This document shows positions 6,056 to 11,220 of a stretch of DNA of 64,000 bases, piece by piece. This stretch comes from Candidatus Meridianibacter frigidus. Its GTDB lineage: Bacteria > Vulcanimicrobiota > Vulcanimicrobiia > Vulcanimicrobiales > Vulcanimicrobiaceae. Each line of letters begins with the position of its first letter. The stretch's first letter is position 1. Location of the stretch: NCBI GenBank assembly GCA_003243975.1, contig QHBJ01000006.1, forward strand, positions 1 through 64,000. Reading direction: 5' to 3'. The translations under genes and the position numbers were made by a program. The notes under the pieces were generated by a model. That model was not told the origin of the DNA, did no database searches, and was given only the letters and a program-made list of their open reading frames with translations.

Positions 6056-6669
6056 CTACTTTCCCACGATCAAGTACGGCGTAATCGAGTCGATGCGTCT
6101 AGGCGTCATCCCCGCAACGTCGGCAAGTTCGTCCAGCGAGGCGAAGGCGCCGTTGGCGTCGCGAAAGGCGATGAGGCGCGCGGCCATCTCGGGTCCGATG
6201 CCCGGGAGTTGCGCGAGCTCTGATGCGCTGGCGGCGTTGACGTCGATCGGCGCCATCGTAGCCGCCGGCTCCGTTTTCTTCTTCGAATGCTTTTTACGCG
6301 AACGATAGCTCGGCGTCCGCCGACGAGTTGGCGCGGCGCCTGGCGAATAGGCCGTCACCTGCTCGCCGTCTTCCAGCAGTTGCGCTAGATTAATCGCCGT
6401 CGCATCCGCGTCGGAACGCAGGCCACGCGCCGACGAACGGCATCGACTGCCCGCGCACCGCGCGGCAGCCGGAAGAGGCCCGGATAAATCAACGCGCCAG
6501 CAACGTAGACGACCAGCGGGTGCGCGGTAACCGCGTGACGATGCAAGCGCGTTTTCAACCCCGGCTGCATGGGCGCTTGTGCGACGCTTAGGGCTGCGGA
6601 CTTGGCTGGATGCAGGATTGCGGCCAGCACGACCACCATAGCGATGCCGCCGAACAAGTAAACCTTCAC
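6056..6669 (-). pseudogene. comEA: comEA, DNA-uptake protein, disrupted by a single-base frameshift
   Basis: Two overlapping frames together make one ComEA. The first, from a GTG at 6669, encodes a membrane anchor ([15 protein letters not shown]) and an SLBB-type beta segment (VVYVAGALIYPGLFRLPRG). The second ends at 6056 and encodes a linker rich in Lys/Arg and the double helix-hairpin-helix domain (IDVNAASASELAQLPGIGP ... AARLIAFRDANGAF), which binds DNA. Homology switches frame near 6428-6434, where one G appears to be missing: AVDAVRR is followed out of frame by ARGLRSDADA. ComEA is the periplasmic DNA receptor of natural transformation. Either the gene is dead or the base is a sequencing error. 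The comEC relic at 10.2 kb favours real loss. Confidence 0.8.
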
Positions 6670-6740
6670 GAGGGGCTTTCACGCGCGGCGTTTGGGGCGA
6701 AAGAGGGTTCACCGCGGCCGCAGCCGATGTTGAGCCTCTC

Positions 6741-9236
6741 ATGAACACGACCGTACCGGCGCAACGCGATGCGTATGACTTTCGTACCTTCGAACGCGCC
6801 TGGCAGGAACGCTGGGAACGCGAAGGTATCTTCGCCGCGCGCGCCGGCGACAAGCGCCCCAAGTACTATGTGTTGGTGATGTTGCCGTATCCGTCGGGCG
6901 ACCTGCACGTCGGACATGCAAAAAACTACACGTTGGGCGACGTAGTCGCGCGCATGATGCGCATGCTGGGATACAATGTCTTGCATCCGATGGGTTGGGA
7001 CGCGTTCGGGCTGCCGGCCGAAAACGCAGCCATCGAGCGCGGGGTGCATCCCGCCGAGTGGACGCAGGCGAACATCGCGAACATGCGGCGCCAAACGCGC
7101 CTGATGGGCACCAGTTACGATTGGACCCGTGAGATTTCAACGTGCGATCCCGAGTTTTATCGCTGGAATCAATGGCTATTTCTGCGGTTCTACGAGCAGG
7201 GCTTGGCGTACAAACGCGAAGCGCCGGTCAATTGGTGCCCGCGCGACCAAACCGTGCTGGCCAACGAACAAGCCGAAGGCGGCGTCTGCTGGCGATGCGG
7301 CACTGCCGTTGAGCGGCGCAACCTCTCGCAGTGGTTCTTAAAGATTACCCGGTACGCGGACCGTCTGCTCCAGGATCTCGAAAATCTAACCGCGTGGCCC
7401 GAGCGCATTCGTACCATCCAGCGCAACTGGATCGGTCGCAGCGAGGGGCTCACCTTTTCGTTCGGGGTCGAAAACAGCGATGCGACGATCTCCGTCTTCA
7501 CGACGCGTGCCGACACGCTATTTGGCGTTATGTATATCGCTGTCGCTCCCGAGCACCCAGTGGTGGAAAAGCTCCTCCAAATTGCGCCCAAGCGGCGCAA
7601 GAGTGTGGAGGCGTTCCGCGAGAGTTTGAAGTCGAAGTCGGAACTCGAACGAACCAGTCTCATGCAGAAGCAAGGCGTAATCACCGGCGCGTATGCGGTG
7701 AATCCACTCTCCCACGAGCGCGTCCCGATCTACGTCACGAACTACGTGCTCTCGGACTACGGTTCCGGCGCAGTGATGGGGGTGCCCGCTCACGACCAGC
7801 GCGATTTCGAGTTTGCGCGCTCGCATAAACTTCCTATCGCGCAAGTCGTGCTCCCAACCGGCTTGGTTGCGCAAGCACCGTTGACGGAAGCGTATTTGGG
7901 TGAGGGGCGCCTAATCGCAAGCGGCGATTTCACCGGTATGTCCAGCGAGCGCGCACGCGGCGCAATTGCCGACCGCCTCGCGGCCCTGGGCTGCGGTGAC
8001 CGGACGGTGCAATACAAGATTCGCGATTGGCTCATCTCTCGCCAACGGTATTGGGGCACGCCCATTCCCATCGTCTACTGCGAGCGCGACGGCGAAGTAC
8101 CCGTTCCCGACGATCAGCTCCCGGTACGATTGCCGGCAGATGTTGAAATTACGGGTGAAGGTTCGCCGCTTGCCCGCGACGTGCGGTTCGTGCACGCGAG
8201 CTGCCCGAAGTGCGGCGGTCCCGCGCGCCGCGAAACCGACACCATGGATACGTTCTTCGAATCATCATGGTACTATCTGCGCTACACGGATCCGAACAAC
8301 CGCGAGCAAATGTTTCTGCCCGCGACGGCCAACAATTGGATGCCGGTCGATCAATACATCGGTGGCGCAGAGCATGCCGTGTTACATCTGCTCTACTCGC
8401 GCTTTTTCTATAAGTTCATGCACGATGAAGGCTGGGTGAGTGGCCCGGATGAACCCTTTACCCGCCTTTTCAACCAGGGCATGGTTCTGCTCGGCGGTCA
8501 GAAGATGAGCAAGAGCCACGGCAACGTCATCGGAATCGACGACGCCGTTTCCCGGTACGGCGTCGATGCGATGCGGCTGTTCTTGCTCTACGCGACACCG
8601 CCCGAAGACACGATGGACTGGACCGAGGAAGGCGTGAGCGGCCGCGTGCGCTTCGTGAATCGCGTCTGGCGCGCGTGCGAACCGTTTTGCAGGGAAGCCG
8701 CCGCAGTTCCGCTGGACCATATCCCGGCCGCCGCCACGCCCGAGGAGAAGGCGCTGCTACGCGCAGTGCACGTGGCCATCAAGTCGGCGGTTGACGAAAC
8801 CGAGTCACGGCGCATGCACTACAACGTGACGATCGCCAAACTAGACGAATACGTAAATGCGCTGACGGCACTCGGGCAAACCACGCAAACCTCACCCGCG
8901 TTTCTTTATGCGGTTCACGCATTGCCGGTCGTGGTCGCCCCGTTTGCACCGCATTTGGCCGAAGAGCTCTGGCACCGTATGGGACACTCTTCTTCCGTAC
9001 ACATCGAGCGCTACCCCGAGGTGGATCAAACCGCGCTTGCGGTCGAAGAGATTACGCTGGTCCTACAAGTCAATGGAAAGATTCGAGCACGCATTTCGAC
9101 GCGTCCGGGTCTCGATGAAGAAAGCGCATTCGAATTGGCAGTGGCGCAACCGGGCGTTCAAACGCACCTGGACGGCAAAGAAGTGCGCAAGCGCATCTAC
9201 GTCGCCGACCGGCTCTTAAACCTAGTGGTGGGTTAG
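6741..9236 (+). CDS. leuS: Leucine--tRNA ligase
   Basis: This 831-residue class I synthetase charges tRNA-Leu. The HIGH motif is seen as LHVGH at residues 55-59 and KMSKS as KMSKSHGN from residue 588. The zinc-knuckle cysteines ([12 protein letters not shown] ... CWRCG) and an editing domain (CP1) lie between them, and a C-terminal anticodon-binding domain ends in a typical small beta fold (VNGKIRARI). Length is normal for bacterial LeuRS. The start ATG at 6741 precedes the conserved [15 protein letters not shown]. The gene is divergent from comEA with a 71-nt gap that must hold its promoter, and its stop overlaps the convergent epimerase by 4 nt. Confidence 0.98.
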
Positions 9237-10174
9237 CTTCCGGCCAGCGCCTGCGCTCGCTTGAAGTACTCGACCGTTTCGGCCATCCCGCTTCTCAGGT
9301 CGGTCTGCGGACCCCAGCCCATCTCGCTGCGCACCAGCGCAATATCGAACACCGCATCGCGGACGTCTCCCGCACGCTTCTCAGCGCGCACGACCGGGGC
9401 TTCAAAACTTGTAGCCGCGCAAAGCGCCCGATAGATTTCATTGACGCTCGTGCGCTTGCCGGTTCCGACCACAAAGCAGGATCCGCTTCCCCGTTGGAGC
9501 GCAGCGACGTTTAAAGCGGCAACATCTTTCACGTAGACGTAATCGCGCGTCTGCTCGCCGTCCCAGTCGATGCGAATCTCTTCCTTATTTAAGAAACGGG
9601 CGATAAAGATGGCGATCACTCCGGCCTCGCCGTTGGGGTCCTGCCTTGGCCCGTAGACGTTTCCGTACCGCAGCGCGGTAAAATCCAACCCGTGCTCGAG
9701 TCTATAAAACCGTAGATAATGTTCGGCCACCATTTTTGTTATACCGTACGGTGAAACGGGCCGCTGCGGGGTTTGCTCGTTGATGGGCAGGCGTTCGGGA
9801 TTTCCGTAGGTGGCGCCGCTCGAAGCGAAGATCACTTTGCGCGCGCCCGCCTTGACCGCATTCTCGAGTACATTGAGCAGACCGACAACGTTGACTTGCG
9901 CATCGAGCACCGGATCGCGGGCGCCGATCGTGACGCTATGCTGCGCGGCGTGATGCGATATGAGGTCGGGCTTGAAATCCTGAAAAATTCGCGCGATGTT
10001 TTCATCGCGGATGTCGCTGTGGATGAAGGACGCTCGGTCGGGTACGTTGATGCGCCGCCCGCCGCCATGCTCCCACAGCGAATCGATTACCAGTACGTCG
10101 TGACCTGCGCCTAGGAAGGCGTCCGCGACGTGCGAGCCGATGAAGCCGGCGCCGCCGGTGACGATAATGCGCAT
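9233..10174 (-). CDS. NAD-dependent sugar-nucleotide epimerase/dehydratase (UDP-glucose 4-epimerase-like)
   Basis: An extended short-chain dehydrogenase of 313 residues. The Rossmann motif GGAGFIGS is at residues 7-14, the catalytic Tyr/Lys pair is SPYGITK (Y143, K147), a Ser-Ser-Gly strand (FASSGATYG) precedes it, and the substrate-side motif [12 protein letters not shown] follows. These are the features of GalE-like 4-epimerases acting on nucleotide sugars for envelope polysaccharide. The exact sugar is not predictable. It stands alone, convergent with leuS and divergent from the comEC relic, so it does not belong to a sugar operon here. Confidence 0.9.
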
Positions 10175-10185
10175 CGGGCCCCGGT

Positions 10186-11220
10186 TTGCGTTTCGCTTAC
10201 GGCTCCCCTGGGTTGCGGCAAGTCACGCGCGTCGCAGTAGAGGGCGTGACCCGTTCGCCGCTGCTTGCGCTTGTCGCAGCCGCTTGTTTGCTTTGCTCCG
10301 TTTTTATTGCCGGACGCACGGAAGGTGGGATGATCTCGGCGAGGGTCACACGACTCGCTACATCGGAACCATTTTAGATGCCGCCCCGACGCAGTCCATC
10401 ACAACCGTTCACTTTCTTACAGACGACCAACATCGGCTGCAGGTTTTTTTGGTCAGAACCGCGCCGCTCGGGTGGGAGTGCTTCTCGGATGTACGCTCGC
10501 TCTCTGGCCGCCGCTGCTCCCGCAACACGATCTGCGCATATCGGTGCTCGATGTCGGCCAAGCGATAGTATCGTCTTACAAACGCCTGCGGGACATACGA
10601 TCCTGGTGGGATGGCGGAGGGGGGCTTGAGCACGGCGCCACGCAGAGCGGGCGCGCATCATCTGGACGCGATCCTGCAGTTGCATCCACCCGGCGATCAC
10701 GCTGGCGGTTTAGCACCGGCTACCTTATTTTGAGGTTCCCGGCGGCGTAAAAGTGCGGATTTCGACTCCACTACGTCGTAGGACGCTCTCATTTTTTGAG
10801 GTACCCTTCGGCGCACAAGAGCGCTATCAAGCGGACATCATTGACGGTGCACCCATGGCAACCTTACAAGCCGATGAAGACGCCATCACCGCGTTAACAA
10901 GCTCAGGCGGCGCGGGGCAATTAACGACTATAGGTATTTGGTATTTCTCTCGAACAGGATTTCAGCCAGATCCTTCACTTCGGTTCCAGATTGGGGTCGC
11001 GAGTAATTCATTCAATATGCCAGAGTTCATCGAGGCCGTGCATCCGAAGGTCGCGCTCATCTCGGTTGGACGCCACAATCTCTTCGGCCATCCCGCTCCG
11101 CTGACGATCGAAACGCTGCGCGCAGCGGGCGCGCAGATCTATCGCACGGATAAAAAAAGCGCGATCATGCTTTCCACCGATGGGTCCGCCCTGAACGTCC
11201 GGACCATGCTAGGGCCCTAG
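10186..11220 (+). pseudogene. comEC: comEC relic: competence channel gene with internal deletion and several frameshifts
   Basis: Fragments in all three frames line up in the order of a ComEC protein. An N-terminal piece holds hydrophobic helices (from 10186) and a DUF4131-like strand region (RYIGTILDAAPTQ, about 10355-10470). The text then jumps directly to the start of the C-terminal metallo-beta-lactamase-like domain (HDLRISVLDVGQ near 10520-10560), so the large membrane-spanning competence domain is missing. Further pieces IVLQTPAGHTILV, DGGGGLEHG, DAILQLHPPGDHAGGL and KVALISVGRHNLFGHP each need a different frame. Where ComEC normally has an HHGS motif the relic reads GVASN. ComEC is the inner-membrane DNA-uptake channel. 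A deletion this large is not a base-calling error. Confidence 0.8.

Follow-up and report, generated by a model that had tools for sequence, protein, structure and literature searches.

Remains of comEC beside leuS and galE in Candidatus Meridianibacter frigidus and the probable loss of natural transformation

The comEC locus

The window analyzed here is a stretch of 64,000 nucleotides from Candidatus Meridianibacter frigidus (positions 1 to 64,000 of contig QHBJ01000006.1). It contains, among others, leuS and a galE-like epimerase gene, followed by the degenerate remains of comEC (Table 1). The gene order leuS(+)-galE(-)-comEC(+) is conserved in sister genera and is the same in the window, with the remains in the place of comEC; we therefore regard the relic as the orthologous comEC locus. 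The first-pass annotation had described the surrounding region as one of intact genes: this holds for leuS and galE, but not for comEA, which is frameshifted 4 kb away.

Table 1. Coordinates of the features discussed (positions in the window unless another locus is named)
Feature	Position	Strand	Remarks
comEA, frameshifted	6065..6678	-	Frame-aware alignment to ComEA of relatives; HHH_3 match
leuS, intact	6741..9236	+	831 aa; end-to-end alignment with relatives; synteny anchor
NAD-dependent epimerase (galE-like), intact	9233..10174	-	313 aa; end-to-end alignment; adjoins comEC in relatives
Probable ComEC N-terminal remnant	10248..10477	+	On the galE side of block 1; weak alignment, ComEC columns 7-104
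comEC block 1 (first part of the C-terminal metallo-beta-lactamase-like domain)	10478..10717	+	ComEC columns 494-593
Lower-GC stretch without recognizable ComEC similarity	10718..11001	+	HHGS expected here
comEC block 2, C-terminal end of ComEC, single open frame	11002..11220	+	Columns 717-782 (aligned part from about 11017 to 11214), 44 identities
dprA relic (L164)	G000:C10:37788-37340	-	92 bits versus 15-19; conserved dprA locus, other contig
comEC split sites	L071 near 8474; L079 near 6330; L078 9145; L072 15316 and 9859
comEC split sites, continued	L194 6231 and 13081; L196 632; L197 10018; L207 12599; L208 3479

The DNA of the window was aligned, with frame changes allowed, to a profile of 22 ComECs from the same family. 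A degenerate comEC is recognized at 10478-11214 (+) with a score of 191 bits, versus 17-19 for shuffled sequences and 25 for the reverse complement. Searched against 60 genomes of relatives, the frame 10714-11220 hits the ComEC C-terminus in 55 of them (best E = 1.6e-23); this result and the orthologous position bear out the original identification of a comEC relic. Pfam searches with the single frames of the relic returned nothing relevant; ComEC was detected only by the profile alignment that tolerates frame changes. Block 1 contains frame changes near 10564, 10610 and 10638 as well as a 20-column gap, and it is separated from block 2 by one further frame change and about 285 nt with a GC content of 0.52-0.55. 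These intervening nucleotides (10718-11001) have no recognizable similarity to ComEC (score of 24 versus 17 ± 3), and no match to them, as a sign of a foreign source, was found in any fetched locus.

Just upstream of block 1 about 350 codons are absent, including the whole Competence domain. Since neither the columns of this domain in the relic nor a PF03772 match anywhere in the genome could be found, the first-pass annotation was correct in reporting the domain as missing. It had also reported a fusion of N- and C-terminal pieces of ComEC. The C-terminal piece stands, with its 191 bits, while the N-terminal one is plausible by position and weak by score: the segment 10248-10477 reaches a score of 32 against the N-terminal columns (shuffle mean 16, sd 3; none of 100 shuffles as high), but with other penalties the match is borderline (22 versus 14-20). 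The loss of HHGS likewise agrees with our alignment, in which the columns that hold this motif are unrecognizable; in addition, the metal motif HxHxDH is changed from HPHGDH to HPPGDH. In comparison with the ComECs of relatives, which have about 735-807 codons, there is no continuous frame, but a 168-codon C-terminal frame preceded by several frame changes. The relic thus resembles the ComEC/Rec2 family of DNA-uptake channels (PF03772) in its orthologous locus and its recognizable C-terminal remnants, and differs from it in having lost the channel domain, the metal motifs and any usable frame. Because about 350 central codons with the membrane channel, the reading frame and the metal-binding motifs are gone, the relic is incapable of making a DNA channel.

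A complete comEC elsewhere was sought in the whole genome of the organism (a draft of 1.95 Mb in 43 contigs, 96.2% complete). Neither PF03772 nor the relic frame 10714-11220 identified one, the only match to the latter being itself. By contrast, comEC is present in 44 of 45 good relatives, and PF03772 in 50 of the 57 genomes of the family with at least 90% completeness; the genomes searched do not include a congener of the window's organism. With leuS as query, the closest organism bearing a name is a 'Candidatus Eremiobacterota' metagenome genome (66%), and the window's organism probably belongs to this phylum.

Other genes of the DNA-uptake route

The Pfam DprA model covers only 61 positions in the window's genome, versus a DprA match in 45/45 good relatives. 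In the frame-aware alignment, what remains of dprA shows a 60-column gap besides multiple shifts of frame, and its neighbours are conserved and intact. In comEA a one-base frameshift near 6430 separates the membrane-anchor/SLBB part from the helix-hairpin-helix DNA-binding part, the latter being well preserved; an intact comEA, as could be assumed from the HHH_3 match, is ruled out by this frameshift. As a side observation, the naive list of open reading frames gives a misleading 268-codon frame for the region of comEA. The comFC gene has an open frame of 172 codons that lacks about 35 conserved residues ahead of the phosphoribosyltransferase motif.

The core genes of the type IV pilus, for which we considered the motor ATPase (T2SSE), the platform protein (T2SSF) and the secretin, have no match at all in the window's genome; each of the three is found in 17 of 18 sampled good relatives, and T2SSE in 16 of 18 genomes in the rest of the family, the window's genome counted. 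The T2SSE family of Pfam also takes in VirB11, so that the absence of any T2SSE match in the window's genome argues against a VirB11-driven uptake system as well. To look for a scar left by the loss of the pilus cluster, we compared the regions flanking this cluster in three relatives; these regions are not conserved.

Probable loss of natural transformation

Each of these lesions alone could have another cause. Taken together, the lesions of comEC, dprA, comEA and comFC and the lack of pilus core genes indicate that the lineage has very probably lost the uptake of outside DNA, a phenotype that is read here from the state of the genes. The first-pass annotation had seen in the comEC relic evidence of lost natural transformation; the claim now has support beyond comEC, from the dprA relic, the comEA frameshift, the shortened comFC and the missing pilus motor, platform and secretin. 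Some points weigh on the other side: as the draft is 96.2% complete, its missing remainder could hold the pilus genes that were not found, although many relatives carry these at more than one locus, and the lesion of comEA is a single frameshift while comFC is still an open frame. Overall, we are highly confident that the remains are the only comEC of this genome and are decayed, that decay extends to the rest of the uptake route, and that the lineage no longer transforms. Selection on the uptake pathway would have been lost first, and the genes of the pathway would then have decayed one after another.

The deletion and the frameshifts could in principle be artefacts of sequencing or of metagenome assembly, comEC being intact in the organism, and a draft of 43 contigs invites this suspicion. 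However, the neighbouring genes match those of relatives over their full length, the metal motif in the relic has an amino acid change beyond the indels, and a second gene of the pathway, dprA, is also ruined between intact neighbours on another contig. Sequencing error is very improbable as an explanation when two genes of one pathway that are not linked carry lesions independently of each other while the genes around them are intact. We give an equally small chance to the idea that the locus is not simply dead and that the ComEC C-terminus has been put to new use in a functional protein encoded by the frame 10714-11220. In its favour, 168 codons run without a stop, GC3 (0.72) is similar to that of leuS, and 44 consensus residues are kept over the last 66 columns; but the first 100 codons show no similarity to Pfam families or to the fetched loci, the frame has no metal motif of any kind, and such open frames are frequent by chance in GC-rich DNA, with many in the list for this window.

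A third explanation would have the comEC loss begin, as in sister genera, with an island integrated at the HPHG|DH codons that has since departed. It draws on the several sister genera whose comEC is split at these same codons, and on the large serine recombinase that adjoins two of the left halves. In the relic, however, the HPPGDH codons are contiguous and there is no junction sequence, and a homologue of the recombinase is absent from the window's genome. With neither recombinase nor junction found, we rejected the island as the cause of the comEC loss in this genome; we consider such an origin improbable, if slightly less so than the two preceding alternatives. Decay of comEC along with the rest of the pathway remains our preferred reading.

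Loss of transformation is known in other bacteria and the present case is ordinary in kind, but it is unusually well documented: a whole DNA-uptake pathway is clearly seen in decay where almost all relatives retain it, and comEA, comEC, comFC and dprA represent different stages of decay. The sister genera offer a natural setting for comparing how genomes evolve in the presence and in the absence of transformation. Our literature searches turned up no account of transformation in Eremiobacterota. In Streptococcus suis, ComEC is the transformation component most often inactivated (n = 22; 400 strains), mostly by early stop codons, and the whole gene set is kept in 85% of strains (PMC12479173). 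The inactivation of comEC is common to both cases; the difference is that in the window's genome most of the pathway is gone.

Splitting of comEC at the metal-motif codons in sister genera

A recurrent break in the comEC of sister genera falls precisely on the HPHG|DH codons of the metal motif (Table 1). In two genomes, G035 and G024, the left half of the gene stops at HPHG, with a large serine-type recombinase directly behind it (Resolvase and zinc-ribbon matches in both). Right halves that start at the next codons, D-H, are located elsewhere in the genome in G024, G035, G028, G029 and G032 (the junction of the right half in G035 was read from the sequence), and left halves ending at the same codon occur also in G077 and G085, and twice in G004. 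The latter genome also has, at G004:C3:872591-907572 (L205/L206), a comEC split by an insertion of about 34 kb at another site, a linker (columns 483/487); two further ComEC pieces inside the insertion end at the HPHG codons. The letters common to the junctions are GCGA or GA. A scan for serine-recombinase motifs identified recombinases beside the left halves of G024 and G035, but not beside the other split copies. From these sequences, the metal-site codons of comEC look like a repeated site-specific insertion point of islands. No trace of such a split, or of its recombinase, was found in the window's genome.

Fragments of comEC alone do not prove a loss, since some of the genomes that carry them (G028, G029, G032) keep an intact comEC. 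In G024, G019 and G035 (L212, L213, L214) the sole good T2SSE match is TadA-like, the others being absent or weak; on this basis a type IV pilus may be absent from these genomes as well. A more far-reaching proposal is that in this family islands with a large serine recombinase have specialized on the metal-site codons of ComEC and repeatedly disable transformation of their hosts, the window's genome being an end stage whose entire pathway decayed following such a hit; we regard it as doubtful, with perhaps a slim chance of being right. The insertion point would offer a test of the idea that mobile elements profit from disabling transformation. The splitting of comEC in sister genera may matter more than the relic in the window.

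Mobile elements that disrupt competence genes are known from many species, in comYC, comFA, comK and comM, and as a mefA cassette in pneumococcal comEC (PMC4774983). The relatives of the window's genome are similar in having insertions inside comEC, and differ in the site of insertion, which is formed by the metal-motif codons. The comEC of the window differs from these examples in showing a deletion and frameshifts, and no island; its loss is a further instance of a known phenomenon. Judging by titles and abstracts, neither of two papers found on comEC together with serine integrase appears to deal with such insertions. A separate kind of lesion is seen in the comEC of G003:C59 (L061 near 9646), which is full length apart from a frameshift plus a gap of 25 columns close to the beginning of the metallo-beta-lactamase-like domain.
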